Assembly (NCBI GenBank): GCA_937120965.1
Contig: CAKZKA010000064.1
Coordinates: forward strand, 1-34,433
From: an uncultured Chloroflexota bacterium
GTDB taxonomy: Bacteria; Chloroflexota; Chloroflexia; Chloroflexales; Chloroflexaceae
Length of the DNA: 34,433 bases
Reading direction: 5' to 3'
Shown here: positions 1,518 to 20,836 of the stretch, in pieces
Numbering within the stretch: the first letter of the stretch is position 1
How the letters are laid out: the number at the start of each line of letters is the position of its first letter
Notes under the pieces: generated by a model
What the model saw: only the letters and a program-made list of their open reading frames with translations
Told to the model about the DNA's origin: nothing
Databases searched by the model: none
Program-made: the position numbers and the translations under genes

Positions 1518-1586
1518 AACAACCTCCAGACACAAGATGATGGGTTCACAAACCGTCAACGTGGACGTTGTGCGAGCCCTGCGGCT

Positions 1587-3059: not shown

Positions 3060-3086
3060 AGCCGTCCCCACCATACACTAACTGTC

Positions 3087-4439: not shown

Positions 4440-4515
4440 TCTTTCCTGCCTTTAGTTCTCAATCGTTGCCCATACAGCTTCGCCGCACAGCACCGGTATC
4501 AGCGAGTGTTGTCCT

Positions 4516-4534
4516 GGGAGGGCGTAGCCCTCCC
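4516..4534. repeat. Palindromic core of the dispersed repeat family
   Basis: GGGAGGGC-GTA-GCCCTCCC, followed by AAACTCTCC, in the 143-bp gap between the aminotransferase and FAD oxidoreductase genes. It matches the cores at 430, 10936, 24309, 24357 and 24459. Only the palindromic module is present here. Confidence 0.8.
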
Positions 4535-4582
4535 AAACTCTCCATTCATTCAAAGGCGCGCGGGGACCGGGTTGCCCCTGGT

Positions 4583-5689: not shown

Positions 5690-6327
5690 AGCCGGCCTCC
5701 TCCCGGGGTGCGTGCAACCGGGGCGTAGTGCGATTCAGGCTTTACCTCGTTCACCTCCAGGAGGCTCTCCTCGATACGCAGGCCCATCGTCACCGCCAGT
5801 GAGTGGCAGATGGCGCTGTGCACATCTTCCACCGCTGGCATGTGATAGGTCGCGCTGTGCAGGCTGATCCGGGCGAGCCGTGCCAACTTGCCGCCGTCGA
5901 AGCCGGTCAGTCCGACCGTGATCGCCCCCTGGGCATTGGCCCAACTGACCGCCTCCAGCACGTTCGGCGAGTTGCCGCTTCCCGAGATTGCGAACAACAG
6001 ATCGCCGGGCCGGTAGTGGGTCATCAACTGCTCGACGAAGATGTCGGCATAGCCCTGATCGTTGGAAAAGGCGGTCATCATCGGGACGTTGTCGGTCAGG
6101 GCCAGCGCTCGCACGCGTCGCGCGCCGGGCTTGATCGTCCATTTGGCCAGATCACAGGCGAAGTGAGAGGCTGTTGCGGCGCTGCCACCGTTGCCGCAGA
6201 CAATAATCGTGCCATCGCGTTCGTAGGTGTGCCAGAGTGCATCGGCAATTGCCTCCAGCGGTTCGTGCGGCAGTTGTTGCAGGCTCTGCGACACCAGGTC
6301 GAGATAACGACTGAGTGGAGTAATCAT
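5686..6327 (-). CDS. SIS-domain sugar-phosphate isomerase, GmhA-like
   Basis: 213 residues forming one SIS domain. Visible motifs are IIVCGNGGSAATASHFACDL, the phosphate-binding serine loop AISGSGNSPNVLEAV, and a C-terminal EDVHSAICHSL that matches the metal-binding histidine region of D-sedoheptulose-7-phosphate isomerases. GmhA converts sedoheptulose 7-phosphate to heptose 7-phosphate, the first step toward nucleotide-activated heptoses. No heptose kinase (HddA/HldE) or GmhB is visible in the window, so either heptose synthesis is completed elsewhere or the substrate is another ketose phosphate. Its stop codon overlaps the aminotransferase start. Confidence 0.88.
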   Translation of the reverse strand: MITPLSRYLDLVSQSLQQLPHEPLEAIADALWHTYERDGTIIVCGNGGSAATASHFACDLAKWTIKPGARRVRALALTDNVPMMTAFSNDQGYADIFVEQLMTHYRPGDLLFAISGSGNSPNVLEAVSWANAQGAITVGLTGFDGGKLARLARISLHSATYHMPAVEDVHSAICHSLAVTMGLRIEESLLEVNEVKPESHYAPVARTPGGGRL

Positions 6328-6459
6328 AGGTGTAAGGACTCTCTACCAGGGGCCAGGCCGCATGGCCTTAGCTCCAGGGCGACGCGGCTGATCGTAGATT
6401 GGCAACACATCAGGGCCGAAGAATATGTTCGCGTGCAACAGGCCTTCGACGCGAGACTG

Positions 6460-6909
6460 CTACGATCTGGCCACCAGGATCATGCCGATGCAGATAACGG
6501 CGACCCCGGCCGCTCGCAGGGGATTGACACTCTCACGCAGAATGAGCCAGCCGATCAAGAAGAGGAGCACGTGGTTCAAACTCACGAATGGATAGGCAAC
6601 GCTCAGATCGATCCGTGAAAGCGTCACCAACCAGAAGAACGTGCCAAACCCGTAGATGAGCAAGCCGCCAATGACGTATGGTGAGCGCACGATCTGCCAG
6701 ATGATCCCCGGTACCGTTTCCGCGCTCAGGCCCAGCGGACCCATCTGGTTCATCCCGTGTTTCAACATCGTCTGGCCGACAATTCCCATAACGGTCGCGA
6801 TCAGGATCAGCATCCAGGTGCTCATTAACAGCTCTCTGATTCGTCGTGGCGTTGCCTTGCCTGAGGCTGAGACGCGCACGGGGGCGGTTACTTCATCGAT
6901 ATGCTGCAT
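6460..6909 (-). CDS. EamA/SMR-like four-helix membrane protein (ArnE-type lipid-linked sugar flippase subunit candidate)
   Basis: 149 residues with four predicted membrane helices: WMLILIATVMGIVGQTMLKHG, IWQIVRSPYVIGGLLIYGFG, FFWLVTLSRIDLSVAYPFVSL and LLFLIGWLI followed by AAGVAVICIGMILV. The GQTMLKHGM and LSVAYPF signatures are those of small EamA proteins such as ArnE/ArnF, which flip undecaprenyl-phosphate-linked sugars. The ATG at 6909 has AGGAG nine bases upstream; an internal ATG at 6825 would remove a 28-residue hydrophilic N-terminus and cannot be excluded. It lies directly after the DPM-like GT2 gene, the order expected for a synthase-flippase pair that supplies lipid-linked sugar to GT-C enzymes. 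Confidence 0.82.
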   Translation of the reverse strand: MQHIDEVTAPVRVSASGKATPRRIRELLMSTWMLILIATVMGIVGQTMLKHGMNQMGPLGLSAETVPGIIWQIVRSPYVIGGLLIYGFGTFFWLVTLSRIDLSVAYPFVSLNHVLLFLIGWLILRESVNPLRAAGVAVICIGMILVARS

Positions 6910-6942: not shown

Positions 6943-7713
6943 TTATTCACTGGGGGCGCGGCGAATGCTCTGCGCCGTGTTCCAACTGTGTTGACTGGCA
7001 GGGCGTCGCCCGATCAGGCCGGCCATGTAGCGCAGGTGGGTGCGGGTAATCCGCAGCACTTTCGCCTTGGATTGCCCATAGCGGCGCACGCGCAGGGTGG
7101 TTGGGTACTCTGCGATGCGGTAACCGGCCAGCCGGGCTTCGACCAGCAGTTCGGTGACCATCAGGAAACCATCGGCGTGGGTGACGATCCGTTCAATCAC
7201 CTCGCGGCGGCAGGCTCGGAAAAGCGCGGTGTAGGTGTGGATGTTCCAGTCAATCAGGAGACGGTAACAGAGCGATGCGCTCTTGCTGATGACGACCCGA
7301 TACGCCGGCACGTTCTCGATCCCGCCGGCGGGATGGTATGGTGAGGCAGTGACAATGTCTACATCAGGCGTGAGCCGGTCGAGCAGCGCCGGGATCTCGC
7401 CGAAGGGGTATGTCCCATCACTATCACAGGTGACAATGACGGCGCCCCGACTGTGCGCGAAGCCGGTGCGCAGGGCGGCCCCGAGGCCACGGTTGCGCTC
7501 GTGGCTGACAATCCGCGCCTCGGGCACGTCACGAAAGGCGTCGGCAAGCAGTTCGCCGGTGTTGTCGCGGCTGCCATCATCAACCAGAATGAGTTCAACG
7601 CTCCCGCGCTGGCGCAATACGGGGAGCACTTGCCCGATCCGATCGCGCATCGCGGGAATGCCTTCTGCCTCGTTGTAGCAGGGAATGACAATGGATAGGT
7701 CAAATGTCTGCAT
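6943..7713 (-). CDS. Family 2 glycosyltransferase, dolichyl-phosphate-mannose/ArnC-like
   Basis: A 256-residue GT-A fold enzyme. It begins LSIVIPCYNEAEGIPAM, with ELILVDDGSRDNT (nucleotide binding), the donor-site acidic motif VTCDSDGTYPFGEIP, and a downstream ADGFLMVTELLVEARL acceptor region. There is no C-terminal membrane domain, so it resembles soluble DPM1-type synthases that charge polyprenyl phosphate with a single sugar at the cytoplasmic face. AGGAG precedes the ATG by about ten bases. It is the first gene of the operon running to 486, and a conserved promoter-like element lies about 100 bp upstream (7801-7850). The sugar donor is unknown. Confidence 0.92.
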   Translation of the reverse strand: MQTFDLSIVIPCYNEAEGIPAMRDRIGQVLPVLRQRGSVELILVDDGSRDNTGELLADAFRDVPEARIVSHERNRGLGAALRTGFAHSRGAVIVTCDSDGTYPFGEIPALLDRLTPDVDIVTASPYHPAGGIENVPAYRVVISKSASLCYRLLIDWNIHTYTALFRACRREVIERIVTHADGFLMVTELLVEARLAGYRIAEYPTTLRVRRYGQSKAKVLRITRTHLRYMAGLIGRRPASQHSWNTAQSIRRAPSE

Positions 7714-7790: not shown

Positions 7791-7850
7791 CTCTTAGTAT
7801 GCCGGAAGCTTCTAACGATTAACTAAATCCCTCCAATCCAGCGTCTGACA
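7791..7850 (-). promoter_or_regulatory. Conserved upstream element with 11-bp-phased direct repeats (copy 1)
   Basis: On the - strand this reads TGTCAG-N15-GATTTAG-N4-TCGTTAG, then a possible -10 (TACTAA) about 16 bases after the last TTAG. The heptamers GATTTAG and TCGTTAG start 11 bp apart, and the TGTCAG heptamer sits 22 bp further upstream, so the pieces share helical phase. The block matches 18691-18750 at identical spacing. It lies about 100 bp ahead of the GT2 start at 7713. The regulator is not identified; the geometry fits OmpR/PhoB-type operators. Confidence 0.6.
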
Positions 7851-7966
7851 CTTCGTTTAGAATCAGGGCCTGGCTCGAGGGGGGAACGCGGGGCCACCAG
7901 GTTTCCCTGGTATCAGCGGCTGTGTCGCACAATCACGAGAGGAAAATAGATTTTTCCTGGGGTAGC

Positions 7967-8156
7967 GCAGCCCTCCCAAACCCTCACAGGGAGGGGAAAG
8001 GGGAAACCCGGTTTCCCCTTTTCCCAACCGCTATTGGGATCGGCTGCCGCCCCCACAGGCAGGGGGATGGGGAAACCCGCTTTCCCCATCCCCCAACCGC
8101 TATTGGGAGCGGCTGGCACCCCCACAGGCAGGGGGATGGGGAAACCCGGTTTCCCC
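7967..8156. repeat. Tandem 69-bp palindromic repeat array
   Basis: Fills most of the gap between 7714 and 8167. The palindrome GGGGAAACCCGGTTTCCCC, or a one-base variant, occurs at 8000, 8069 and 8138, exactly 69 bp apart. The spacer between copies carries a second small stem (CCGCT...AGCGG) and a CCCCCACAGGCAGGGGG block. A degenerate GCAGCCCTCCC module precedes the array at about 7967. No coding sequence is supported here. Part of the array borders the stop of the GT4 gene at 8168, so it might also affect transcript ends. Confidence 0.85.
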
Positions 8157-8167
8157 GTATTTTCACC

Positions 8168-9466
8168 TCAGGAATTGCCTTTCCCGAGCGACGGAAGGGT
8201 GGTTTGCAGTGCGGCGTGGTAAGCCAGTTCCAGGGTTGCAGCGCTGGCGTGCCAGGTGTGGTGGCGCTCAATGTAGGCGCGCCCGGTCTGGCCCAGCCGC
8301 GTGCGCATGGTCGCATCCTTGAGCAGCGTAACAATCGCGTCAGCGAAAGCGGTGACACTTTCCACAGCCAGCAGTTCAACCCCCACCCGCGCCTGGAGCG
8401 CAACTGTGGCCTGACGCGCGGCGACCACGGGGGTGGCGCATGCCAGGGCTTCCAGCACCTTGTTCTGAATGCCGACGCCGTAGGTGAGCGGCGCGACGGC
8501 AAGAGTGGCGCGTTGCAGATAGGCGCGTAACTCTGGCACGTAGCCGGTTATCTCGATGCGCCGATCACGCTCCAGAGCGCGCAGACGTGGCCCGGGGTTC
8601 GCGCCGGCGATGACCACCCGCGCGTCAGGGCGCTGCTGCCAGACCAGGGGCATGATCTCGCGTACTAGGTGGAGCGCAGCAGCCTCGTTGGCGTGGTAGC
8701 TCATTTTGCCGCTGAAGAGGATGGTGGCCGGCTCGCGCTCTGTCTGTGGTGGCTGGAAGTACTCGCAATCAACCCCGTTTGGCACAACCCGAATCGGCAC
8801 GCCGGAGGGCTGATTGAACTGCCTGCGTAGCGTTTCGAGCGCCCAGCGGTCTTCTGGCGAGGTAATTACCACCTGGGCAAAGGCTTGCCCGTAGTTCGCC
8901 TCGTAGCGCCGTGTGCGGGCCAGGTCGAGCAGCGCCATGGCACGTGTGCCCGGAGCGGGGTTGTGCCGCAGCGTCCGCTCAAAAAGCAGGCTGATGCTGT
9001 CTACCGCATCCAGTACCAGGGGCGGAGCGTTGGCGAGCCCTGCCGCAGCGACCCGCGCTACCTCGGCGCCGCGCAGATGTTCGATGTGTACCACGTCAAA
9101 TCCGCCACTGGCCATTGCCTTTCGTACCGCCTGAACCAGCGCCGGGCTCAGGCAGTGGGCCGCTTGGAGCGGTAGTGGGCCGGGAACGGCGCGCAGATAC
9201 GCCTCCAGAATGGCCCGGCGCCCGTGCGGTATCGCCACGGTCGGGCAGAGACTGTGGAGGGTCTCGAGCGCCCGGCGGTCGTCGGGGCCGCTGATGGGGC
9301 AAACCAGCGTAACCGCGTGACCACGCGCTACAAGCTGGCGCAAGAATTGGAACGGTCGCACGCGGATCGGCGAGGGCGCATAGGGCGCGACGAAGAGAAT
9401 CCGCAACCGTCGCGCATCCACTCCGTCGCTACTCACCCGATCAGGTGGGGCGGATAACAGGCTCAT
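8168..9466 (-). CDS. Family 4 glycosyltransferase (GT-B fold)
   Basis: 432 residues. The N-terminal GT-B half begins about 20 residues in with LRILFVAPYAPSPIRVRPFQFLRQLVARGHAVTLV. The C-terminal donor half starts near IRVVPNGVDCEYFQP, followed by ATILFSGKMSYHANEAAALHLV and the retaining-GT4 signature GVGIQNKVLEALACATPVVA. These enzymes add a sugar from a nucleotide donor to a lipid-linked acceptor in the cytoplasm. It overlaps the upstream GT4 gene by four bases (ATGA), so the two are co-translated. The first ~20 residues are hydrophilic and variable; no better internal start is obvious. Donor and acceptor are unknown. Confidence 0.92.
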   Translation of the reverse strand: MSLLSAPPDRVSSDGVDARRLRILFVAPYAPSPIRVRPFQFLRQLVARGHAVTLVCPISGPDDRRALETLHSLCPTVAIPHGRRAILEAYLRAVPGPLPLQAAHCLSPALVQAVRKAMASGGFDVVHIEHLRGAEVARVAAAGLANAPPLVLDAVDSISLLFERTLRHNPAPGTRAMALLDLARTRRYEANYGQAFAQVVITSPEDRWALETLRRQFNQPSGVPIRVVPNGVDCEYFQPPQTEREPATILFSGKMSYHANEAAALHLVREIMPLVWQQRPDARVVIAGANPGPRLRALERDRRIEITGYVPELRAYLQRATLAVAPLTYGVGIQNKVLEALACATPVVAARQATVALQARVGVELLAVESVTAFADAIVTLLKDATMRTRLGQTGRAYIERHHTWHASAATLELAYHAALQTTLPSLGKGNS

Positions 9467-10710
9467 AGGTTCACCGGGGATGCCGCAGGGCCGCGCGCCT
9501 CTGCGCGGGCCAGAGCCGCGGCGTAAGCCTCTTCCACGCGCGGGTTGACCACGCGCCAGTCATAGCGCTCCTCGGCTACCCGGCGCCCGGCAGCCGCCAG
9601 ACGCTGCCCCAGGCTCGGGTCGCGCAGAATGCGCACCAGGGCCGCAGCGAAGTCGTTGGGAGTGTCGCCCACCAGCAGGTGTTCGCCCGGCGTAAGGTCA
9701 ATCCCCTCGTAGCCGATGGTGGTTGAGACAATCGGGAGACCGCGGGCCAGGGCTTCGAGGATCTTGACCCGCATGCCGCCCCCGGCCCGTACCGGCACGA
9801 TCAGGGCAGCGGTCTGCTCCAGGTATGGTCGTGGATCCTCGACGTAGCCAGTCACGGCGATGCTCGGGTCGTCCTCGCTTAGCCGGCGCACCGCTGCCGG
9901 CGGTCGCGCCCCGACTACGGCGAAGTTTACGTCCGGCACATCCCGTTTGACCAGCGGATACACTTCGTGGGCGAACCACAGCACGCCGTCAACGTTTGGC
10001 GGCCAGAACATGGTGGCCATACTGAGAATGGTCCGCGGCGCCGCGATCCGCTGTACCGGCGCTTCGCCACGCGCATCCACGGCGATGGGAACCACCGCCG
10101 TCGGCGGCAAACTGGTTCCGGCCTCGGCAGCGGCCAGTTCGAGGAAACGCAGATCCGGTTCGCTGACAGCCAGCAGCGCGTCGAAACGGGCGCAGATAGA
10201 TGCCTCGTAGCGGCGTAGCCGCCGCGCCTCAAGCTCGAGAAAGAGCCGCTTCGGCAACGGCCCGCCGTGACGGGCCATGCGGGCGACAATCGTCCAGACC
10301 GCGTTGTGCTCGTCCAGCACCCGCGCTCCCGGCAGATTGACCGCAAAGCGGGCCATGTTCAGTTGATCGGCGTGAATGATGTCGAAGGTCTCCCGGCGCA
10401 CCAGGTCGCGCAGAAGGGCCTCCAGTTCGGGCGAGGCGTCACGACGCATAATGAACGACTCACCCGTGACCGCGCTCCTCAAAAGGTGCTGTACATCGCG
10501 CAGGCGCGAGCGCTGGAAAGGTACCGTGTAGACGGCCTTGCACAGACCGCGCAGGCTCTCGGCATGGGCTCGCTCCTGCTCAGAACGTACCAGCGAAACA
10601 AGCGTAACCTCGTGGTGCCGTCCGAGGTACTGGAGCAGGTTGTAGGTCTTCACCTTGGGGCCACTGTCGGGCGGGTATGGCGCTACCAGGGTTAGCACAA
10701 GAATGCGCAT
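9463..10710 (-). CDS. Family 4 glycosyltransferase (GT-B fold)
   Basis: 415 residues. The N-terminus MRILVLTLVAPYPPDSGPKVKTYNLLQYLGRHHEVTLVSLV is the classic GT-B acceptor-domain start. The donor domain contains RTILSMATMFWPPNVDGVLWFAHEVYPLV and ends in GGGMRVKILEALARGLPIVSTTIGYEGI, the GT4 nucleotide-sugar signature. It is similar in organisation to, but clearly diverged from, the GT4 encoded just downstream, with which it overlaps by four bases. It is the first gene of a two-gene unit; TATAAA lies about 15 bp before the ATG but no convincing -35 is seen. Likely role: chain extension of the surface glycan. Substrate unknown. Confidence 0.92.
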   Translation of the reverse strand: MRILVLTLVAPYPPDSGPKVKTYNLLQYLGRHHEVTLVSLVRSEQERAHAESLRGLCKAVYTVPFQRSRLRDVQHLLRSAVTGESFIMRRDASPELEALLRDLVRRETFDIIHADQLNMARFAVNLPGARVLDEHNAVWTIVARMARHGGPLPKRLFLELEARRLRRYEASICARFDALLAVSEPDLRFLELAAAEAGTSLPPTAVVPIAVDARGEAPVQRIAAPRTILSMATMFWPPNVDGVLWFAHEVYPLVKRDVPDVNFAVVGARPPAAVRRLSEDDPSIAVTGYVEDPRPYLEQTAALIVPVRAGGGMRVKILEALARGLPIVSTTIGYEGIDLTPGEHLLVGDTPNDFAAALVRILRDPSLGQRLAAAGRRVAEERYDWRVVNPRVEEAYAAALARAEARGPAASPVNL

Positions 10711-10856
10711 AGCGGTCTCACGTTTATAGCGTCGGTTTCGTCGTGGCAGCCGGTCATGCGGCTGCGCCCCACAACACCAGAATGAAACGTGTAACCTGGA
10801 GAGACGCAGCGCCGCTGTGTCTCTACACCCAAACCCTCGCGTCAGGGCGGGGTGTG

Positions 10857-11065
10857 GGGAAACCAGGTTTCCCCATTTTTACATCAGGCCCCATGCGCGG
10901 GGCGCACAACGCCGCGATGAAAATAACTATATCTTGGGAGGGCGCAGCCCTCCCAAACCCTCCCACCAGGGAGGGGTGTGGGGAAACCCGGTTTCCCCAT
11001 TCCCAACCGCTGGTGGGAGCGGCTGGTGCCCCACAGGCAGGGGTATGGGGAAACCCGGTTTCCCC
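10857..11065. repeat. Modular dispersed repeat block
   Basis: Occupies most of the 10711-11117 gap. It holds three GGGGAAACC(C/A)GGTTTCCCC palindromes (10857, 10980, 11047), one GGGAGGGC-GCA-GCCCTCCC palindrome (10936-10954), and a linker beginning with a GC-rich stem and ending in ATGAAAATAA (about 10891-10925). The last two GGGGAAAC units are 67 bp apart with the same inner CCGCT...AGCGG stem as the array at 7967-8156. A degenerate linker copy lies at about 10755-10800. No gene is supported. Confidence 0.85.
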
Positions 11066-11117
11066 GTATTTTCACCTCAGGGCCAGCTCGATTCGAAACG
11101 CCGCATCCAGATCTGGT

Positions 11118-12611
11118 TCATTCCTCGTTTTGCAGGGCGGCCCTGACGCCGACCGTTGCCGCAGGCTGCGATTGATGGTTTCTCGGTGGGATCACTATCA
11201 GAGCTGCCAGTACGAGGGCTGTCAGCAGCAGCGGGGCCAGGCTCAGCGGTCCGGCAAGCCCGAGGGCCATCCCTAGATTGCGGGCAATGTCCCCCGTGGC
11301 CCAGGCCGGCAGCACATACCCGGTCCAGGTGTTACGAATGGCGTCGCTGGGAAAGAGTTGTCCCGCGACGCTTTCGATCCAGACCAGAGCAACCGAGGCG
11401 ATAACCAGCGTAACCACTGCTGCGCGACCCTCCGGTCGCGTCCAGAGTCGGGCGGCAAGCCAGGTAGCGCTCAGGGCCAGGAAGGGGATAATCGGCACGA
11501 TGTAGCGCGGGCCGGCAGCAAAGCCGCCCCACCACATCACCGATGAGCCGTAGAACAGGATCAGGGCGAGGGGCGCCAGAAGCAGGAGCCACCACTCGGC
11601 GCGGCGCGTGCCTCCACGCCACCAGACGATCGCTGCCGGCAGCGCAAGCAGTAGCCACGGTGCGCGAACGAAGAGCCCGCGGAAGACGCCAAAGGTCAGG
11701 CCCCAGAGGGCCTCGGCCCGGGGGGTGGTGATGCTCATAAAACCGGTATGGTGCTGCTCCTGCCAGAGGGCCGAGTGGGCGTAGCCGATTGGCAGTGGCG
11801 TGCCAAAGGCCACCAGGTCATAGGTGATTAGAAGCGCCACTGGTATGACGCCCCCAATCGCCAGTGGGCCAACCCAGCGCCAGCCGCGCCGCGCCAGGGC
11901 GTAGAGGCCGATCAACGCGGCAGGCAGCGCAACCGGATACTCGCTGATAACGGCCCAGCCCAGCAGCAGCCCGCAGAGCAAGCCGCGAACATAGGCGGGC
12001 CGGCCCTCCTCATCGTTGCGGGGCCAGGCTGCGAAGAAAGCTCCAAACAGGAGCGCGGCGGCTACCTGGTGGCTGTAGAAGTTGCCTGCGTAAGGCGCGG
12101 CGCTGGTACCCAGGCCGTAGGCCAGGGCGCCCAGAGCTGCCAGAGATGGAGCTATGCCCAGGCGCACCAGGGCCAGGTAGAATACCACCCCCAGGGCCGC
12201 CGCGGTGGTGGCGACGACCACCAGGGTCAACGCATACTGAACCAGGGCGAAGCGAACTTTGTCGGCCTGCAGGCCGCTACCATCCTCGCGCAGAGTGGAC
12301 TGAAAGGCTGCCCCGCTGCCGATCGCTTCCAGACGCTCGCGTACCGGCGGGATACTCAACGCGGGGCTGAGGGCCATATACACAGGAAGCGCCAGGAACG
12401 AAAGCCCCGGTGGTTTGTCGGTGTAGGCGCGCCCCTGGTAGATGGCGTAATCGCCGGTATTGGCAACATAGCGGTCGATGCTCACCGTGCCGTCGTCAAC
12501 CAGAGCCAGCACCAGGTTCAGCCGCGAGTTCTGGTTCCAATCCGACCAGCGAGGCAGCACGTAGGCGTAACAGGTGAAGAGCAGGATGAAGATGAGAAGT
12601 GAGCGCCGCAT
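11118..12611 (-). CDS. GT-C membrane glycosyltransferase, ArnT/GT39-like
   Basis: About 497 residues with roughly ten hydrophobic helices. It begins with a signal-anchor (MRRSLLIFILLFTCYAYVLP), then a first extracytoplasmic loop with DDGTVSIDRYVANTGDYAIYQGRAYTDKPPG; the acidic residues and KPPG resemble the catalytic-loop pattern of polyprenyl-phosphate-dependent GT-C enzymes such as ArnT. The start at 12611 is chosen because GGAGG lies eight bases upstream; longer in-frame starts run back into the neighbouring gene. Such enzymes take sugar from a polyprenyl-phosphate donor outside the membrane, consistent with the GT2 and EamA genes in this locus. It is the last gene of the run from 18535. 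Confidence 0.83.
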   Translation of the reverse strand: MRRSLLIFILLFTCYAYVLPRWSDWNQNSRLNLVLALVDDGTVSIDRYVANTGDYAIYQGRAYTDKPPGLSFLALPVYMALSPALSIPPVRERLEAIGSGAAFQSTLREDGSGLQADKVRFALVQYALTLVVVATTAAALGVVFYLALVRLGIAPSLAALGALAYGLGTSAAPYAGNFYSHQVAAALLFGAFFAAWPRNDEEGRPAYVRGLLCGLLLGWAVISEYPVALPAALIGLYALARRGWRWVGPLAIGGVIPVALLITYDLVAFGTPLPIGYAHSALWQEQHHTGFMSITTPRAEALWGLTFGVFRGLFVRAPWLLLALPAAIVWWRGGTRRAEWWLLLLAPLALILFYGSSVMWWGGFAAGPRYIVPIIPFLALSATWLAARLWTRPEGRAAVVTLVIASVALVWIESVAGQLFPSDAIRNTWTGYVLPAWATGDIARNLGMALGLAGPLSLAPLLLTALVLAALIVIPPRNHQSQPAATVGVRAALQNEE

Positions 12612-12627
12612 TGCTCCTGCCTCCATT

Positions 12628-14160
12628 TTACGGCGCGCTGCGTTGCAGCAGCGTGTAAGGCTCGGCAGTGTAGAGGACCTGGTAGTCTCGCGCCAGTACG
12701 TCGGGCGGGTAGATCCTGGTGTAACCGCTGAACGGGCCGAGCAGCACATAGGGCGGACGGGCTTCCAGCCCGTCGTACTCTACCGGCGCGCCGCCAAGCC
12801 ATACGTGGCGCACAGCCGGATCGAGCAGTTCTGTCGGCACGTAGTGATAGTTATGGTCGGTGAGCACACCCATCTCCGGCTCCCAGGTCTCGATGATCGC
12901 GCTGGTGGGTACGTTGCGGTCGAGATACGCTGCCATCTCGTGGGCGGCGTAGCGTGGGCTGAGTACGACCCGGGCCGTCAGCGCGAGCGGCGCCAGAACG
13001 ACCAGCGCCAGATAGGCTGCGCCGAGCCATACCAGGACCGCGCGCCGACGGTTCCGCAGGGCCTGGAAGAGATCGTGGGCCAGCAGGGCTGCCGGTAGGG
13101 CCCCGAGGACAACGGCGGGGAAGGCGTAGCGCGGCCAGCCCAGCGAGATTAGAAACCAGGCGAGCCAGAGCACGGCCATCAGAGTCGGCGCCAGGTGCGC
13201 CAGCGCCCACGGGCTGCGCGTGCGAGCGCGCCACAGGCCGTAGACCAGACCGGGGATCAGCAAGCCGCCATAGACCTGGATCAGGTAACGCGCGGCGCGT
13301 AGACTCGCCTGCGGGTCAAATACAAAGATCGCGCCGCCCGCGGCCTGGCGCGTCTTCGCCAGGTTCGCCGCAAAACCGTCGGGACCAAAAAAGGTGAGCA
13401 TGACCACGGTCCAGATCCCGAAGCACGTCACGGCGATAGCCGGCGGGGCCAGGCGTACCCACCAGGTACTTGCCCGGTAGTAAACCAGGTCGAGCAGGGC
13501 CAGCAGCGCCAGCGAGGGCACGACGATCAGCACAAACTGGTTCTTGGTAACCAGAGCCAGCCCGAAGGCCAGCCCGGCGAGCAGGCTGAAGCCTCGCGCC
13601 CTCGCCGGCACAAGGATGGCGGCGCTGTACGCGAGCAGACCAAGCAGAAGGAAACCTATGCCCGGCACCTCGCCCAGGACCTGACGGCCGTACTCCACCA
13701 GCCCGTCGAAGCGCAGGGTGCGTGAGGCCAGTGCCAGGAGCAAAGCCAGCGCGGCCACTGGCCAACCGTAGAGTCGGCGCGCCAGGATGTACAGGGCAAC
13801 GAGGGCGAGGGCCATATAGGCCACAATCACCAGGCGCGCCTGGGTCAGGCCAACCCCGCCGAGCTTGAATGCAGCGGCCACGGGCAGCATCACCGTCGGC
13901 CCGACGCCGATCGTCGGCCCGAAGTAGCGAAAGCCCTCACTGCTAATGTCGGCGTACACCCCGTAGCGCACCAGCGTCTCGGGCACGTGCAGGTGCGAAC
14001 CTTCGTCGAACCAGGTAGGCGGCGCGTAGGGCAGGTTGAGTAGCCCGAGGAGGGCAGCCAGGAGAGCGAGGGCCAGAGCGATGGTCCGTTCCCAGCTTCG
14101 CCGCGCGGCGGCTGATTGATGTGCAAGAGGCCCGTGCCCGACCGAGAGTTGTTCTGACAT
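12628..14160 (-). CDS. GT-C membrane glycosyltransferase, GT39/PMT-like (DPM-dependent type)
   Basis: About 510 residues. A first membrane helix (TIALALALLAALLGLLNLPYA) is followed by PPTWFDEGSHLHVPETLVRYG, where the DE pair in the first external loop matches the catalytic acidic position of GT39/GT83 enzymes. Multiple helices follow, and the C-terminal soluble tail (about the last 110 residues) contains MAAYLDRNVPTSAIIETWEPEMG, typical of these proteins. The start at 14160 is chosen because upstream sequence is a hairpin region and not protein-like. Its stop lies 17 bp before the next GT-C gene, so the two are probably co-expressed. Acceptor unknown. Confidence 0.85.
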   Translation of the reverse strand: MSEQLSVGHGPLAHQSAAARRSWERTIALALALLAALLGLLNLPYAPPTWFDEGSHLHVPETLVRYGVYADISSEGFRYFGPTIGVGPTVMLPVAAAFKLGGVGLTQARLVIVAYMALALVALYILARRLYGWPVAALALLLALASRTLRFDGLVEYGRQVLGEVPGIGFLLLGLLAYSAAILVPARARGFSLLAGLAFGLALVTKNQFVLIVVPSLALLALLDLVYYRASTWWVRLAPPAIAVTCFGIWTVVMLTFFGPDGFAANLAKTRQAAGGAIFVFDPQASLRAARYLIQVYGGLLIPGLVYGLWRARTRSPWALAHLAPTLMAVLWLAWFLISLGWPRYAFPAVVLGALPAALLAHDLFQALRNRRRAVLVWLGAAYLALVVLAPLALTARVVLSPRYAAHEMAAYLDRNVPTSAIIETWEPEMGVLTDHNYHYVPTELLDPAVRHVWLGGAPVEYDGLEARPPYVLLGPFSGYTRIYPPDVLARDYQVLYTAEPYTLLQRSAP

Positions 14161-14173
14161 CGCCAGGTGCCCC

Positions 14174-14217
14174 CGTCGAACGTGAGGGGAGGCCGGCACC
14201 TCCCCTCGCGTTCGACG
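14174..14217. terminator. Long stem-loop between radical SAM and GT-C genes
   Basis: Arms 14174-14192 and 14199-14217 pair at 18 of 19 positions around a six-base CCGGCA loop. It sits directly downstream of the radical SAM stop and upstream of the GT-C start. There is no T-run, so it could attenuate or protect the transcript rather than end it. Confidence 0.55.
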
Positions 14218-14239
14218 ACGTATAGGAGAAGGACGGCCC

Positions 14240-16015
14240 TCAGTCACCCGAACCGGCCAGGCGCTGCATTCCCTTGCCCTGCAGGCTGCCGCCCATCCAC
14301 TTGAGATGGTTGACGCCGATGGTCCAGAGCTGGCCGAGCGTGTCGGGATTGGTCGCGCCCTTGAGGAAGGTCTTGATCGGCCCGGGCCGCAGCGACCACT
14401 CACGGGCGGCGCGCTTGGCCCAGTACTCCAGGTCTTTCGAGGAGAGGTGCGGATAGTTCAGCACCGTGTGGGAGTACATATCGTAATCCTCCCACTGGTT
14501 CATCTGGATCCAGCCGTTCTCAACCGCCTCGTAGTAGAAGGGCGTGCCCGGATAGGGTGTAGCGATGTGGAACAGCGCGATGTCCACCGGGATGCGCTTG
14601 GAGAGCGCGATGGTCTGCTGGATGGTCTCGACCGTCTCACCAGGCAGACCGATGATGAAGTAGCCCCAGTTCATGATCCCGGCGCGGTGGCTGGCGGCAA
14701 TCGTCTCCTCGATCCGCTTGACGGTGGTGCCCTTGCGCGCGCGCTTGAGCACCGTCTCGCTGCCACTCTCCAGGCCCCAGGCGATCATGAAGCAGCCTGC
14801 CTTGCGCATCAGCTGCAGCTCGGCCTCGTCAACGAAGTCGACCCGGCTGTTGCAGCTCCAGCGCAGCTGGATGCCGTCTTTGATGATCGTATTGCACAGG
14901 TCGTAGACAAACTCCTTCTTGACCGTGAACAGGTCGGCCTCGAAGTGGATATGATGCATGCCCATCTCCTTGAGCATGATCATCTCCTGGAGCACGTGGT
15001 CGGGGCTGCGGTGGCGCACACTCGATTGGTAGGTGACGTGCTTGATGCAGTAGCGGCAACCGGCCGGGCAGCCGCGGCTGGTGAGCACGAAGGTGTAGGG
15101 GCCGCCGACGATCGGCACCTTGTACTTGCGCCAGGGCAGTTGATCGTGCAGGGGGATGGGCAGGCTGTCGAGGTTCTCGATGAAGGGCCGGTCAGGGTTG
15201 ATGCGAACCTCGCCGTGCTCGTCGCGGTAGGCGATGCCGAGGGTCTCGCGCAGGGCGCGGGCAATGACCTGTGGGTAGACGCCGAGGAAGCGCCCTCGCG
15301 TGGTCAGGTACGAAGCGTCAGGGAAAGGCAGTTTGCGCCAGGGGGCCGTCAGGTCGGGATTGCCGACCGGGACGGTTTCGGTTGCCTTCTCCAGTTCCAC
15401 CTGCCGATCGATAGTCTTGATCACGTCAACGATGGTCAATTCAGGCTCGCCACGCACGACAATATCGAGCGTCGGGTAGGCCTCCAGCGTCTCACGGCTC
15501 ATCGGCGTGACATGGGTGCCGATCGCCATAGTGACGGTGCCGACAGCCTTGCCGATGAAAGTGGTGCGCATATCGTTCGTCAGCGTGGGCGCCGTGGCGT
15601 GGATAATCATGTAGCGCGGCTTTTTCTCCCACATGTACTTCTCGAACGACTTCCAGTCCATCATCAGGCCGATGGCGTCAACCACCTCGACAGTGTAGCC
15701 GGCCTCTTTAACCACGGCGCCGATCTGGGCCAGGGCCGTCTGGGGCCAGATGATCCCGTCGCGGGTGCGCCGCCCGACGCGGGCGATGTCGCGCAGGAAC
15801 AGGTCACCGTCGGGCGAGGGTGGGTTCAGCACCAGCACATCAAGGCGCTTCTGGCGCTCGCGCGGCATCTCCACAAAGCGGATCTCGCCGGCCCGCTCGT
15901 CGGCTCGGGCCGGGGCGACCAGTTTGATGCCGCTGGTCTTGTCGCCCGGGGCCAGGCGCTTCTCGGCGCCGTTGTCGCCAGGCGTGGCAGTAGTGTCGTG
16001 CACGTGCTCGCTCAT
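14240..16015 (-). CDS. Radical SAM protein with N-terminal cobalamin-binding-like domain (BchE-like superfamily)
   Basis: 591 residues. After a charged N-terminal tail (~55 residues) comes a B12-binding-like Rossmann region beginning LDVLVLNPPSPDGDLFL and including AQIGAVVKEAGYTVEVVDA. The radical SAM domain has TSRGCPAGCRYCIKH with the CxxxCxxC cysteines near 316, 320 and 323 for the 4Fe-4S cluster, then WGLESGSETVLKRARKG and IIGLPGETVETIQQTI. I see no DxHxxG motif, so cobalamin, if bound, lacks the lower histidine ligand, as in several members. The start is the ATG at 16015, with AAGGAG nine bases upstream. Family members do C-methylations, cyclisations and lipid modifications. The substrate here is unknown; the glycan-operon context suggests modification of a lipid carrier or sugar. 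Confidence 0.88.
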   Translation of the reverse strand: MSEHVHDTTATPGDNGAEKRLAPGDKTSGIKLVAPARADERAGEIRFVEMPRERQKRLDVLVLNPPSPDGDLFLRDIARVGRRTRDGIIWPQTALAQIGAVVKEAGYTVEVVDAIGLMMDWKSFEKYMWEKKPRYMIIHATAPTLTNDMRTTFIGKAVGTVTMAIGTHVTPMSRETLEAYPTLDIVVRGEPELTIVDVIKTIDRQVELEKATETVPVGNPDLTAPWRKLPFPDASYLTTRGRFLGVYPQVIARALRETLGIAYRDEHGEVRINPDRPFIENLDSLPIPLHDQLPWRKYKVPIVGGPYTFVLTSRGCPAGCRYCIKHVTYQSSVRHRSPDHVLQEMIMLKEMGMHHIHFEADLFTVKKEFVYDLCNTIIKDGIQLRWSCNSRVDFVDEAELQLMRKAGCFMIAWGLESGSETVLKRARKGTTVKRIEETIAASHRAGIMNWGYFIIGLPGETVETIQQTIALSKRIPVDIALFHIATPYPGTPFYYEAVENGWIQMNQWEDYDMYSHTVLNYPHLSSKDLEYWAKRAAREWSLRPGPIKTFLKGATNPDTLGQLWTIGVNHLKWMGGSLQGKGMQRLAGSGD

Positions 16016-16076
16016 CTGCAAGTTCTCCTTGTTGCGCGCGTCGGGCGCGATAGTTGTCTGGTGTATCCTGCAAACC

Positions 16077-16529
16077 TCAAGTCTGAATTGGTCTGTGGGT
16101 TATGCTATCACGCTTCCTGGCGCGTCGCGCGGCCAGGGAGAGCCTGATTGACTGGGCCAGCATCCCCAGGAAGCTGAGTTGCAAGATGGTTACGGCTGCT
16201 GGCCCGACCAGAATGTGCAATGGTCGGTTCAAATGGGCGATCTCTAACCCGAAGAGAAAGTCTATTGCTGCGTGCAGCTCGACCGCGATGTGTTTGGCGT
16301 ACTCGTAGAGCAGACCGAGCAGCAAAGTGGTTAGCAACCAGCTCACGTTCAGGCGGCTCGGTTGTACGTAGGCCCGGTATCCGAACCAGACGCTGAGCGT
16401 CACTGCGAGCAGAATTGGCCAGTTGTGACTGACCAGAACAATACTGTACCCGAGAACGTAGTGCCACTGTCCGAAGTTGACATAGCTCCATTGCTCAAAC
16501 GACCGGAGCAGACCACGCAGCAGGTCCAT
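16077..16529 (-). CDS. Small membrane protein of unknown function
   Basis: 150 residues, not recognised. Three hydrophobic segments are visible: around NWPILLAVTLSVWFGYRAYV, around SWLLTTLLLGLLYEYAKHI, and around LVGPAAVTILQLSFLGMLAQ. The C-terminal tail is basic (LAARRARKRDS). The start codon shares one base with the stop of the upstream GT2 gene (TGATG), so translation is probably coupled. By position it could be an accessory subunit of the GT2 or of the lipid-carrier machinery, but nothing in the sequence proves that. Confidence 0.7.
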   Translation of the reverse strand: MDLLRGLLRSFEQWSYVNFGQWHYVLGYSIVLVSHNWPILLAVTLSVWFGYRAYVQPSRLNVSWLLTTLLLGLLYEYAKHIAVELHAAIDFLFGLEIAHLNRPLHILVGPAAVTILQLSFLGMLAQSIRLSLAARRARKRDSITHRPIQT

Positions 16530-17758
16530 CAGAGGGCCGCCTCGCTTCGCAACGCTGGCGCAGGGGTATAGCTCCAGTTCAGGTCGGCCTCGGCTTCCAC
16601 CTCGCGGCGGCTCAGTTCGGCCAGTACGCGCGCCAGACTCCAGGCGCTCACCAGTTGCACACCGGTAAGCACCAGCAGCGCACTGACCACGGGCGCGAAC
16701 CAGGAGGCCGCCAGGGCCGGGTTGGTCAGGTCAAACAGGACGGCGGCGATGTAGGTGATAAAGCCGCCTGCAATCGCCAGGAGCCCCAGCCACCAGTAGT
16801 GCTTCTCGATGCGGCGGCCATTACCCCGGCGCCCGAAGAGCCCCTGGCGGATGGGCCGGCGGTGGAAGAGGGCCACCACATAGCTGAACGTTGTGCCCGT
16901 AGTGTAGAGTGTTACTCCGGCTACCGCCAGCACCAGGGCGCCAAAGAGCATCGGGAAAGACCATTCAGCCTGACCGTTGGCAACGTGCAGGGCAATGTGG
17001 CCGCCGACGATCAGCAGGGCCATCAGGAGCAGTGCCAGCCCCATGCCGCCGAAGATCCGCACCGGGTTGTAGGTCAGCGCGGTCCAGACGATTGATTTGG
17101 TAAAGCGCAGCCCGTCACGCACCACGCTGAGCTTACTGCGGCCAGAGCGTTCTTTGTAGGGGATGGGCATTTCGACGATCTTCACCCCCTCGTGCAGCGC
17201 CCGCGTGCTCATCGCCGGGGTGAAGTCGAGCGTATTGGGCAACGGATAGATCATCGGCAACACCGAGCGGCGCAGCACGCGCTGGCCACTCGCGCTGTCG
17301 CTGATGCGCACGCCTGAGACCAGCGAGAGCATGGTGGCGAAGATCGTGTTACCGATGCGGCGCACCAGGGGCATCTCACTGTGCTCGCCCGCCATGCGGC
17401 TGCCGATAACGATCTCGGCGCCGTCGAGGGCCAGACGACACATGTCCGGGAAGCGCTCGGGCGGGTAGGTACTGTCGGCATCGAGGAACCCGATCAGTTC
17501 GCCGCGGGCCACGCTGAAGCCGGTTTTCAGGGCGCCACCGTAGCCGCGATTCTGCTGCCGGATCAGGCGCACCTGGTCGCCATACCCCTGCACGATGGCC
17601 GCGGTGCGGTCGGTCGAGCCGTCGTCAACCACAATGCACTCCAGATCGTCGACGCCGACTGCCGCCAGGTGGGGCCGGATCGCCAGAACGCGCTCAACAA
17701 TCGCTGCAATGCCGTCTTCTTCGTTATAGGCAGGTATCACTACGGAGAGCGTGGGCAT
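16529..17758 (-). CDS. Family 2 glycosyltransferase with C-terminal membrane domain
   Basis: 409 residues. The N-terminal GT-A domain has LSVVIPAYNEEDGIAAIV, ECIVVDDGSTDRTAAIV, the donor motif IGFLDADSTYPPERFPDM and MPIPYKERSGRSKLSVVRDG near residue 210, as in DPM/GtrB-type polyprenyl-phosphate glycosyltransferases. The C-terminal ~170 residues contain about four membrane helices (FGGMGLALLLMALLIVGGHIAL, PMLFGALVLAVAGVTLYTTG, YWWLGLLAIAGGFITYIAAVL, WFAPVVSALLVLTGVQLVSA). It likely makes a polyprenyl-phosphate sugar for the GT-C enzymes encoded downstream. It follows the acyltransferase gene by 45 bp and overlaps the next gene by one base. Confidence 0.92.
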   Translation of the reverse strand: MPTLSVVIPAYNEEDGIAAIVERVLAIRPHLAAVGVDDLECIVVDDGSTDRTAAIVQGYGDQVRLIRQQNRGYGGALKTGFSVARGELIGFLDADSTYPPERFPDMCRLALDGAEIVIGSRMAGEHSEMPLVRRIGNTIFATMLSLVSGVRISDSASGQRVLRRSVLPMIYPLPNTLDFTPAMSTRALHEGVKIVEMPIPYKERSGRSKLSVVRDGLRFTKSIVWTALTYNPVRIFGGMGLALLLMALLIVGGHIALHVANGQAEWSFPMLFGALVLAVAGVTLYTTGTTFSYVVALFHRRPIRQGLFGRRGNGRRIEKHYWWLGLLAIAGGFITYIAAVLFDLTNPALAASWFAPVVSALLVLTGVQLVSAWSLARVLAELSRREVEAEADLNWSYTPAPALRSEAAL

Positions 17759-17803
17759 ATGAGCCGCTCCTCTGTATGCCCGGCCTGCACGGCCGGGAAA
17801 CGG

Positions 17804-18535
17804 TTAATAAACGACAAGCTCGGGCTGCGACGCGGGTAGTGGATCTCGACGCAGATCGCGCACCACCCGGGCAGGGTTCCCCACCGCGACGCAGTAGTCA
17901 GGGACGTCTCTGGTTACGACGGCGCCCGCCCCGATCACGGCATTGCGACCGATCTTTACTCCATCGAGGACAATCGCCCCACTGCCGATCCACGCGCCGT
18001 CGGCGATGCTGATGCCCTGAGCGGTGATCCCCTGGTGGCTGATGGGCCGGCTGGGGTCGTTGAACACATGATTGACGGCCAGAAGTTGTACCAGTGTGCC
18101 CAGATAGACGTCATCGCCGATCGTGATTCCGCCCTGACCCCGCAGGATGCAGCTCTCTCCAATGAGCGAGCGCGCGCCGATGGTGATGTGGCTGTGGGGC
18201 AGATTGCGAAAGTTGTAGACGTGCAGAATGGCGTTCTTCATCACCAGGCTCTCAGCGCCGATGCTGATCCCGCCAGGGCAGGCGTGTAGATACACCCCGT
18301 GATCCAGGTAGGCCCCCCGGCCCAGCCGCACGTTGTCGGCGTAGCGGATGCGTACGCCATCCTCGATTGCGGCGACGCCGTCCATCTGAAGCATCGTCCG
18401 GTAGACCATAGCCCGCAGGCCGATGCCAGGCAATCCGGGTACCCAGGCCAGCGTCGCCTGCATCAGTTGCTCGAGCACGTAGCGCGGGAGCGAGGTGGCC
18501 TGCCGTGAGAGGTAGAGATTGAGCTGATTGCGCAT
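17804..18535 (-). CDS. Left-handed beta-helix acyltransferase (hexapeptide repeat family)
   Basis: 243 residues. After ~50 residues of helical N-terminus the chain consists of hexapeptide repeats ([92 protein letters not shown]). LLAVNHVF contains the likely catalytic histidine, and it ends with the usual [12 protein letters not shown]. These trimeric cytoplasmic enzymes move acetyl groups from acetyl-CoA onto sugars. It is the first gene of the operon running to 11118, with the conserved promoter-like element about 175 bp upstream. It could N-acetylate an amino sugar made by the aminotransferase or O-acetylate the glycan; the sequence does not decide. Confidence 0.9.
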
Positions 18536-18690
18536 CGGTAACGAACTCCCGGGCCGTTGTCAAGACCGCTGCCACGTTCGATTGTGAATGGTAGCTGGTG
18601 CGCGCGCGGCAAGCGTATCGGCAATCGTCGAAGCGCTTGCGCTGGTGGCACTTTCACAACCGGCTGGTGGCTCTGGTTGCCCCATACGGA

Positions 18691-18750
18691 CATTTACGAT
18701 ACAGAAGGGTTCTAACGATTAGCTAAATCCAACGCGCGCGGAGGCTGACA
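18691..18750 (-). promoter_or_regulatory. Conserved upstream element with 11-bp-phased direct repeats (copy 2)
   Basis: On the - strand this reads TGTCAG-N15-GATTTAG-N4-TCGTTAG, with TCGTAA where copy 1 has TACTAA. Every conserved block has the same spacing as at 7791-7850. It lies about 175 bp ahead of the acyltransferase start at 18535, in the 221-bp gap after the epimerase stop at 18757; nothing else was recognised in that gap. Confidence 0.6.
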
Positions 18751-18756
18751 GTTCTG

Positions 18757-19863
18757 TTACACGCCGCTGGTCCGGTATGGGCCACCTACGAGATCGGCGA
18801 TGGCGTCCACGGCTCGTTCCGCGGCCCCGGCGCGTACGGGAGCAGGCGTCTCGCGCAGGCGCGCAAGGGCCTGCGGAGCGAGCCAGGATCGGGCGCCGGT
18901 TGTGATGGCTTCGAAGGTGTTCCCGATCAGCACGGCTACTCCGGCATCTACCAGATAGCGCCACTCGGTTTCATTGCGTACAATCAGCAACGGAGTGCCC
19001 AGTACCGCCGCTTCTTCTTGCAGCCCACCCGAATCGGTCAGCAAGGCCCGGGCAGCACCGACAAGCCGCAGGGTGTCAAGGTAGCCCAGGGGCCGGCAGA
19101 TGCGAACCCGCGGCGAGAGGGTCAGCCCCTGGTGATCCAGGGCCACCCGGGTGCGGGGATGCACCGGGAAGACGATGACATGCTCTTCAGCCAGCGCGTT
19201 GATGGCGCGCACGATCCCGGGCAGGACGTCGGGGGTGGTGTTCTCGGCCCGGTGGATGGTCAGCGCCAGATAGGTTTGAGGTTGTAGTTCGAGCTGTTCG
19301 AGGATCGGCGCCTGCTCGGCGCGTACCTGGTGGCGCTGGGCGGCGTCAATCGCTGTCGAGCCGATGATCCTGATCCGCTCCTCCGGCAATCCCTCACGAC
19401 GCAGGTTGTCGGCGGCGATCTCATCGGCGGCCAGGAGCAGGTCGGCGATGTGGTCAACGATGATCCGATTCTGCTCCTCCGGCATAGCCCGGTTGAACGA
19501 ACGCCCGCCTGCCTCTAGATGGACGACCGGAATACCTAGCTTGGACGCACAAAGCGCCCCTGCCATCGTCGTGTTGGTGTCACCCTGCACCAGTACCACA
19601 TCGGGGCGCCGCTCGAGCAGAATCGGCTCCAGCCGCGCCAGAATGCGCGCGGTCTGTTCCCCGTGGCTTGCCGAACCAACCCCCAGCGTGTGCTGCGGCG
19701 CTGGCAGTCCCAGCTCCTCGAAGAAGATGGCGTCTACCTCGTATGAATAGTGCTGGCCCGAATGTACCAGCACGTGATCAAAACGCTGCTCCAACAGCGG
19801 AATCACCGGCGAGAGCTTGATAATCTCCGGACGTGTGCCCAGGACAGTCAGGACGGTAGGCAT
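18757..19863 (-). CDS. wecB: UDP-N-acetylglucosamine 2-epimerase (non-hydrolysing)
   Basis: 368 residues, the normal family length. Diagnostic motifs are VLGTRPEIIKLSPVI at the N-terminus, HSGQHYS, VLVQGDTNTTMAGAL, HLEAGGRSFNRAMPEEQNR, DHIADLLLAADE, TIHRAENT, PVHPRTR and TDSGGLQEEA. The enzyme interconverts UDP-GlcNAc and UDP-ManNAc (or derivatives) in the cytoplasm. The more common EAGLR is EAGGR here. The start at 19863 is preferred: it lies just after the upstream stop (19868), with AAAGG ten bases before it; ATGs at 19890 and 19884 would overlap the upstream gene. A WbpI-like role on a 2,3-diamino sugar is possible given the dehydrogenase and aminotransferase in the locus. Confidence 0.95.
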   Translation of the reverse strand: MPTVLTVLGTRPEIIKLSPVIPLLEQRFDHVLVHSGQHYSYEVDAIFFEELGLPAPQHTLGVGSASHGEQTARILARLEPILLERRPDVVLVQGDTNTTMAGALCASKLGIPVVHLEAGGRSFNRAMPEEQNRIIVDHIADLLLAADEIAADNLRREGLPEERIRIIGSTAIDAAQRHQVRAEQAPILEQLELQPQTYLALTIHRAENTTPDVLPGIVRAINALAEEHVIVFPVHPRTRVALDHQGLTLSPRVRICRPLGYLDTLRLVGAARALLTDSGGLQEEAAVLGTPLLIVRNETEWRYLVDAGVAVLIGNTFEAITTGARSWLAPQALARLRETPAPVRAGAAERAVDAIADLVGGPYRTSGV

Positions 19864-19867
19864 ACAA

Positions 19868-20836
19868 TCAATACCTTTCTTCATACTCAAGTTGAATACC
19901 GTAATAGCGTTTGAGAAACAACATGAGTTCGATGTAGATGCGATCGCGTCCTGCGATCATACGCTTGCGCTCCAGATCCAGCCACAGGCCCGGCGCTGGC
20001 GGACGCCAGTCCGAGCGATTGACCAGCCAGATGGTTCGTTCGCCGGGGGCGTCCGGAGCCGGTAGTGGCCCGTGGGCCGGAGCTATGGCGATCCGGTAGG
20101 CCTGCTGGCGATAGGTAAAGCGGAGCGCGTTCCGCTCCTCGCGCGTGGCCAGTCCCATACCGTCGTTGAGGATCAGATCGCTGAAGTGGCGCAGCATCTG
20201 CCCTATGGCCGCGTCGCGTTGGCGCGGGTTCAGCGTGCGACGCATACGCTCCATCGGGCTAATGACCCGGGCAGGGTTGCCGTCGGCGACGCTGCCGGGG
20301 GGGAGCGCGCCGCTCACAACTGCGCGCGAGTTGACAAAACTGTTGTCGCCCACCTCAGCGCCGGGTTGGAAAAAGACCCCGGCCGCACACCAGACGTAGT
20401 CACCCACGGTTACCCTTCCGAAGCGCACCCAGTAACCCTCGGTGTAGGGCAGAAACGAGCCGTGCGTGTAGACCATACAGCGGGCGCCCAGCGCACTCCA
20501 ATTGCCGATGTGGACCTCCTCTTCGGTGTTGATCAGGCACTGGGGGCCCACGTAGCTATGGGCGCCCAGACGCAGGCCCCTGGCCCCGTAGACCAGCGTG
20601 AAGCTGCTGACAAGAGCGTAGGGGCCGATGATCACGTCGCCGTCGCAGCGAATGAAGGTCAGCGCCCGGATCGCGCAGTGATCACCCAGGCTGATGTGGC
20701 GGCCCATCACGCTGGCGAACCAGCCGATCTGCACGTGGCGCCCGATGCGGGCGCCGCAGCACACCCGCAGCACCCAAGGCTTCAGCGCCGGCGGGAGGAC
20801 GAAGAGCAGGGCAAAGACCAGGGTACGAACACTCAT
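19868..20836 (-). CDS. Left-handed beta-helix acyltransferase with C-terminal extension
   Basis: 322 residues. Residues ~28-190 form hexapeptide repeats (ARIGRHVQIGWFASVMGRHISLGDHCAI, DVIIGPYALV, LRLGAHSYVGPQC, VHIGNWSALGARC, VTVGDYVWCAAGVFFQPGAEVGDNSFV), and VYTHGSFLPYTEGYW holds a likely catalytic histidine. It ends this domain with GSVADGNPARVI. A further ~120 residues (NPRQRDAAIGQMLRHFSDLI onward) form a mixed alpha/beta extension not usual in simple acetyltransferases and not recognised. It begins with a hydrophobic stretch (LVFALLFVLPPALKPWVL), suggesting membrane association. It sits between the deacetylase and epimerase genes, so it probably acylates a glycan or its precursor. Confidence 0.85.
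   Translation of the reverse strand: MSVRTLVFALLFVLPPALKPWVLRVCCGARIGRHVQIGWFASVMGRHISLGDHCAIRALTFIRCDGDVIIGPYALVSSFTLVYGARGLRLGAHSYVGPQCLINTEEEVHIGNWSALGARCMVYTHGSFLPYTEGYWVRFGRVTVGDYVWCAAGVFFQPGAEVGDNSFVNSRAVVSGALPPGSVADGNPARVISPMERMRRTLNPRQRDAAIGQMLRHFSDLILNDGMGLATREERNALRFTYRQQAYRIAIAPAHGPLPAPDAPGERTIWLVNRSDWRPPAPGLWLDLERKRMIAGRDRIYIELMLFLKRYYGIQLEYEERY

Follow-up and report, generated by a model that had tools for sequence, protein, structure and literature searches.

A predicted OmpR/PhoB-type promoter design conserved at surface-glycan operons of Chloroflexaceae

Glycan operons and promoter elements in the window

The window, the whole stretch of 34,433 nucleotides analysed here, is a complete contig (C64) of an assembly of 307 contigs, so its edges are contig ends. 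Two glycan operons on the minus strand are each preceded by a predicted promoter element (sites A and B), a third, weaker copy (site C) lies further right, and a regulator gene is found at the left edge. This edge gene is on the plus strand, convergent with the site A operon and cut by the contig end. It encodes a winged-helix Trans_reg_C domain (PF00486), which bears out the description of the gene in an earlier note as an OmpR/PhoB-type response regulator. The features are as follows.

1–366, plus strand: candidate regulator, C-terminal DNA-binding part, OmpR/PhoB-type, with recognition-helix region DSNLVPVYIGRLRRKIE
486–6909, minus strand: rest of the site A operon, as in the next six lines
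486–1559, minus strand: GFO/IDH/MocA oxidoreductase
1587–3074, minus strand: sugar transferase
3087–4439, minus strand: amine oxidase-like
4583–5689, minus strand: DegT aminotransferase
5686–6327, minus strand: SIS
6460–6909, minus strand: EamA-like
6943–7713, minus strand: GT2 glycosyltransferase, first gene after site A
7796–7801, minus strand: site A −10-like hexamer CATACT, 10 bp past the last half-site
7812–7828, minus strand: site A proximal pair, ATTTAG (7828–7823) and CGTTAG (7817–7812)
7845–7861, minus strand: site A distal pair, TCTAAA (7861–7856) and TGTCAG (7850–7845)
8168–17758, minus strand: rest of the site B operon, as in the next seven lines
8168–9466, minus strand: group 1 glycosyltransferase
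9463–10710, minus strand: group 1 glycosyltransferase
11118–12749, minus strand: gene without a hit
12628–14403, minus strand: PMT_2
14240–16021, minus strand: radical SAM/B12-binding
16077–16529, minus strand: gene without a hit
16529–17758, minus strand: GT2
17804–18535, minus strand: hexapeptide-repeat transferase, first gene after site B
18696–18701, minus strand: site B −10-like hexamer TATCGT, 10 bp past the last half-site
18712–18728, minus strand: site B proximal pair, ATTTAG (18728–18723) and CGTTAG (18717–18712), 11 bp apart
18745–18761, minus strand: site B distal pair, TGTAAC (18761–18756) and TGTCAG (18750–18745), 11 bp apart
26065–30282, minus strand: gene that follows site C; its product of 1405 aa has a LamG domain at the C-terminus
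30388–30452, minus strand: site C, TGTCAC (30441–30436), ATTTAG (30420–30415), ATTTAG (30409–30404), N10, TACCCT (30393–30388)

Operon extents, including the site B operon as one transcription unit, are predicted from strand and spacing. The TAA within the site B half-site TGTAAC doubles as the stop codon of the gene at 18757–19890, of the Epimerase_2 family (WecB-like). Two kinds of palindromic repeat lie between the window genes: GGGAAACCCGGTTTCCCC-like units about 67–69 bp apart, and GGGAGGGCGAAGCCCTCCC-like units. They are scattered at 7972–8160, 10828–11068, 24160–24255; 430, 4516, 10936, 24309–24484. Two repeated stretches 4295 bp apart with 99–100% identity (26908–28229 and 31203–32524) are either an artefact of the assembly or the result of a recent event that duplicated part of the LamG gene (1405 aa).

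The earlier note had aligned positions 7811–7850 and 18711–18750 base for base. When the window was re-read, the match stood as TCTAACGATTA-x-CTAAATCC-N14-CTGACA, with the heptamers (N)TGTCAG, GATTTAG and TCGTTAG at 0, 22 and 33 on the coding (minus) strand, and the two elements precede glycan operons as described, with first genes starting at 18535 (site B) and 7713 (site A). A search of the 5.18 Mb genome with TCTAACGATTANCTAAATCC, allowing up to 3 mismatches, returned 2 matches, which are elements A and B themselves; the reversed control gave 0, and 0 were expected from shuffles of the window. The random occurrences inside genes that the note had named as a counter-argument did not turn up in this search. 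The match between A and B is confirmed as real and beyond chance.

A four-part promoter conserved across the family

Among 41 genomes of the family, the full 40-base pattern at up to 3 mismatches is confined to the window's own genus. The hexapeptide transferase after site B has orthologues in most of the family (73–95% identity). Scanning upstream of these and of the orthologues of the site A GT2 gene, we tabulated 23 promoters; in several genera these orthologues share a four-part promoter design. Genome G027 carries two sites on one contig, again about 10.6 kb apart, and in the Chloroflexus-like genomes (genus g4) the order Epimerase_2, site, hexapeptide gene reads as in the window. The element design is kept in these promoters of orthologous operons, where the note had pointed to a lack of conservation as an argument against it.

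The window having other intergenic repeats, one could ask whether A and B arose by recent duplication or are mobile, with no regulatory role. This is scarcely credible: A and B share only the half-sites and the −10 and differ in spacer and flanks, their counterparts occupy orthologous positions in different genera, and no Rfam family matches the element, on which ground its reading as an RNA element was also rejected.

The element is longer than first noted. Half-sites lie at −11, 0, +21/22 and +32/33, followed by 10 bp and a −10-like hexamer, TAnnnT. The extra half-site at −11 is TCTAAA at site A and TGTAAC at site B, and the distance from the last half-site to the hexamer is exactly 10 bp at both. 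The consensus of the 23 tabulated promoters has TAA at −9 to −7, TGTCA at 0–4, TTAG at 24–27 and TTAG or TCAG at 35–38, then 10 bp and a TAnnnT-like hexamer at 49–54 whose first base is C or G in four; the spacer holds almost no information. Since most of these promoters were located by half-site similarity alone, before the −10 was considered, the 10-bp step is no search artefact for most of them. The step between the pairs is 21 or 22 bp, and the 11-bp and 10-bp steps are invariant.

In its letters the site behaves as a tandem repeat. Half-site self-match is highest at offset 11 (3.76 of 6 letters, versus at most 2.13 at other offsets), and in four genomes (G014, G016, G036, G037) the central gap is filled by a third in-phase half-site. 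The inverted repeat CTAA-TCG-TTAG was rejected as the recognised shape: it is not conserved, the dyad being present only in some sites of genus g1. The direct repeats of pho boxes have an 11-bp period. Direct repeats about 11 bp apart, with the proximal repeats in place of a −35 box at a set distance from the −10, give the element the architecture of class II promoters of the OmpR/PhoB type. The note's reading as an 11-bp-phased tandem operator of this type gains support from half-sites and spacing that are kept across genera while the spacer drifts, and equally from the self-match peak and the in-phase half-site that fills the gap in relatives. A variable gap between the pairs, combined with rigid 11-bp and 10-bp steps, would fit two separately bound dimers, the proximal one fixed with respect to RNA polymerase.

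CGTTA and TGTCA resemble the −10 and −35 motifs of ECF sigma factors, a likeness that might make the element an alternative sigma-factor promoter and not a regulator site. We consider this very unlikely. TGTCA and CGTTA are about 33 bp apart start to start, against a sigma spacer of 16–18 bp, the element has four phased blocks and a separate TAnnnT −10, and between the pairs the spacing shifts by one base, against a constant 11 bp within them.

We propose that each of the two pairs of 11-bp direct repeats would be bound by an OmpR/PhoB-type dimer, with 21–22 bp from TGTCA to the proximal pair. The proximal pair would sit at the −35 position, 10 bp upstream of the −10 hexamer, and the bound activator would probably recruit RNA polymerase to a promoter with a poor −35. 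The geometry points to activation rather than repression. A protein bound at the proximal pair, which overlaps the −35 position, could also block RNA polymerase, and the element would then serve as an operator for repression of the promoter, or for both activation and repression. That role appears improbable. Beyond the repeats, no TTGACA-like box is conserved in the −35 region, which is what a promoter in need of an activator would show, and the distance to the −10 is rigid at 10 bp.

Further sites and their target genes

A promoter model (R1) was trained on 22 of the 23 tabulated promoters, all of them orthologous to site A or B. Outside its training set it found two sites in the window's own genome, C58:45719 (E 1.2e-6) and site C at C64:30388 (E 0.0025), with more in relatives. 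A two-block score, run over about 1 Mb with both strands counted, turned up many strong sites, 47 distinct ones reaching at least 22 bits over all loci examined. Strong scores ranged from 22 to 61 bits, versus a best reversed-control score of 9.5, and no reversed sequence reached 10. A second model (R2), built from 40 sites of the two-block scan, gave six matches at E 0.1 or better in the own genome, three on C64 and three on C58, a count that rests on model and pattern searches. All six are confined to these two glycan contigs. Two of them are weak by R2, C58:67880 (E 0.025) and C58:52409 (E 0.062), yet score 26–29 bits by two blocks; C58:52409 falls within its ORF when the longest reading is taken, and the ORF may really start further down. 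On contig C1407 of genome G001 (locus L195), which also carries a regulator orthologue, back-to-back sites at 11647 (minus) and 11691 (plus) face divergent genes.

Of 150 genomes drawn from the class, R2 at E 0.01 matched only members of this family and three genomes from a second one (f3). The three f3 matches are weak in the model search and score 30–31 bits by two blocks; they lie upstream of group 1 glycosyltransferases, and all have C at position 36:

G079:C1:1651872
G100:C81:54678
G098:C128:78666

The genes with Pfam hits that follow the sites are mostly surface-glycan genes, and several first genes have no Pfam hit. The target families are glycosyltransferases (GT2, GT4), DegT aminotransferase, sugar transferase, flippases and the HlyD and GNVR export proteins, and further asparagine synthase-like proteins, HAD phosphatase, GHMP kinase and GDP-mannose dehydratase. 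By their family names, SIS, HAD phosphatase and GHMP kinase jointly suggest heptose synthesis. Pfam families of the downstream genes include none for phosphate uptake, which sets these targets apart from a Pho regulon. Both here and in relatives, surface-glycan operons would form a regulon driven by a common promoter design.

An orphan regulator at the edge and its universal paralogue

The edge gene is one of about 23–25 OmpR-type/Trans_reg_C genes in the genome. Orthologues of at least 69% identity are found in genera g1, g2 (G001), g5, g10, g13, g16 and g18. Where contigs allow, the regulator lies 7.2–8.3 kb from site A and is convergent with the site A operon (G000, G001, G014, G015, G016, G025, G027). 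The acidic DD pair of the receiver is replaced by S followed by S, G, N or R in 12/12 orthologues readable in the alignment, and the phospho-acceptor Asp is kept; none of the 12 has a full receiver phosphorylation site (DD, D, T/S, K), and in the window copy this region falls beyond the contig end. In G025 the two genes scanned beside the regulator are not kinases. The edge regulator belongs to an orphan clade with a degenerate receiver, and the residue loss in the orthologues suggests that it probably acts without classical phosphorylation; the retained Asp leaves room for other possible forms of control. One orthologue, G027:C11:109595-109954 (L093), keeps the DNA-binding domain and has an in-frame stop; its receiver-coding part was not found upstream. 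In the loci scanned, no convincing element lies upstream of the regulator gene, and autoregulation through the element was rejected; the best score, 11.0 bits, belongs to another regulator, in G007.

Presence of the regulator and of the site are associated (Fisher p 0.006 over 41 genomes; 2.5e-4 without g4). One base of the last half-site also co-varies with the regulator. Position 36 is T in 44/45 sites and C in 1/45 in regulator-bearing genomes, versus C in 18/22 and T in 4/22 in genomes without it. The counts do not represent independent events; regulator presence is phylogenetically clustered, and the model was partly trained on the same sites. The four T exceptions all fall in G002 and G036, whose congeners bear the regulator and in which a full-length protein search found no regulator orthologue. 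By genus the split is complete except for one G025 site, and a single event, or a few, may account for the change. A hexapeptide-gene tree, built with independent gains and losses of the regulator in view, was poorly resolved.

The edge regulator is not the universal regulator of these promoters, because the Chloroflexus-like genus g4 keeps the promoter and a search there found no close orthologue; in the C. aurantiacus-like genome G007 no OmpR-type gene lies near the glycan cluster. The note's link between regulator and element is thus upheld as a correlation, in a conserved neighbourhood, in co-varying presence and in one half-site base, and fails as a general rule in the Chloroflexus-like genomes, which lack the regulator.

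A second OmpR-type gene (G000:C299; G007:C1:2519493 in the C. aurantiacus-like genome) is a universal paralogue found in nearly all genomes of the family, g4 included. Its receiver keeps DD, D, S and K in 7/7 aligned copies. The paralogue clade is sister to the edge clade (support 100/99), and the paralogue's recognition helix, ESNLVAVYIRRLRTK, is near-identical to that of the edge regulator, unlike those of the other OmpR-type paralogues compared. This paralogue, as a normal two-component regulator, could itself be the activator, the edge regulator binding elsewhere or modulating it. Its sister position and recognition helix speak for this, as do its presence in g4, where the promoter is present, and the GAF-HisKA gene that follows it in G007, and the paralogue may act on the promoter in Chloroflexus-like genomes. 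As an account of the promoters in general we find it unlikely, since the paralogue also occurs in genomes without detected sites, leaving the site distribution unexplained, and the T/C difference at position 36 tracks the edge regulator instead.

On this balance sites A, B and C are probably activator-dependent promoters of glycan operons, of the OmpR/PhoB type, and the likeliest activator in this genome is the edge-encoded orphan regulator, whose orthologues have lost the acidic receiver pair. More tentatively, the pseudo-receiver orphan could have taken over an older glycan regulon from the phosphorylation-dependent paralogue, with the half-site changing from TTCA to TTTA alongside; we see this as possible, if rather doubtful.

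Relation to known systems and significance

The promoter class is of a known kind, that of OmpR/PhoB-type activated promoters. PhoB activation is thought to need a strict spacing to the core promoter (PMC10294691). Like PhoB promoters with their pho boxes (class II activation), the element has direct repeats and TGTCA-like half-sites; unlike them, it precedes glycan operons and not phosphate genes, has proximal half-sites ATTTAG/NNTTAG, and consists of two pairs with a 21–22 bp step. The actinomycete GlnR is an atypical OmpR/PhoB regulator without a phosphorylation pocket, with boxes such as gTnAC-n6-GaAAC and four DNA-binding domains arranged head to tail on a four-site promoter (PMC10704036). 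The system described here shares with it an atypical OmpR/PhoB-type candidate and four half-sites at the promoter, and differs in its targets (nitrogen genes there, glycan genes here) and in the gap between its two pairs. The GlnR N-terminal domain (PF21695, GlnR_1st) was hit only in the G001 copy, at 24.5 bits, below the cut-off of 27.

HP1043 of Helicobacter pylori is an orphan OmpR/PhoB regulator with a degenerate receiver, and its TTTAAG-N5-TTTAAG site overlaps promoters (PMC8345958). All three traits recur here, whereas HP1043 has one half-site pair modelled head to head and an essential housekeeping regulon. ChxR of Chlamydia trachomatis and other pseudo-receiver regulators are also of the OmpR/PhoB type without key receiver residues (PMC3960148, PMC12632262); unlike them, the edge orthologues retain the phospho-acceptor Asp and have lost the DD pair.

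We found no description of such a glycan regulon in the open-access literature searched. As far as that literature goes, three things appear to be new: the regulon itself, the exact architecture of its promoters and the orphan regulator that co-varies with them. The sequence alone defines an apparently undescribed glycan regulon in relatives of Chloroflexus, and since its promoter architecture is precise and a regulator candidate can be named, the regulon is directly testable. If the regulator switch is true, it would be a clean natural case of promoter half-sites following a change of regulator, with the hand-over visible throughout a bacterial family while the promoter frame stays fixed.
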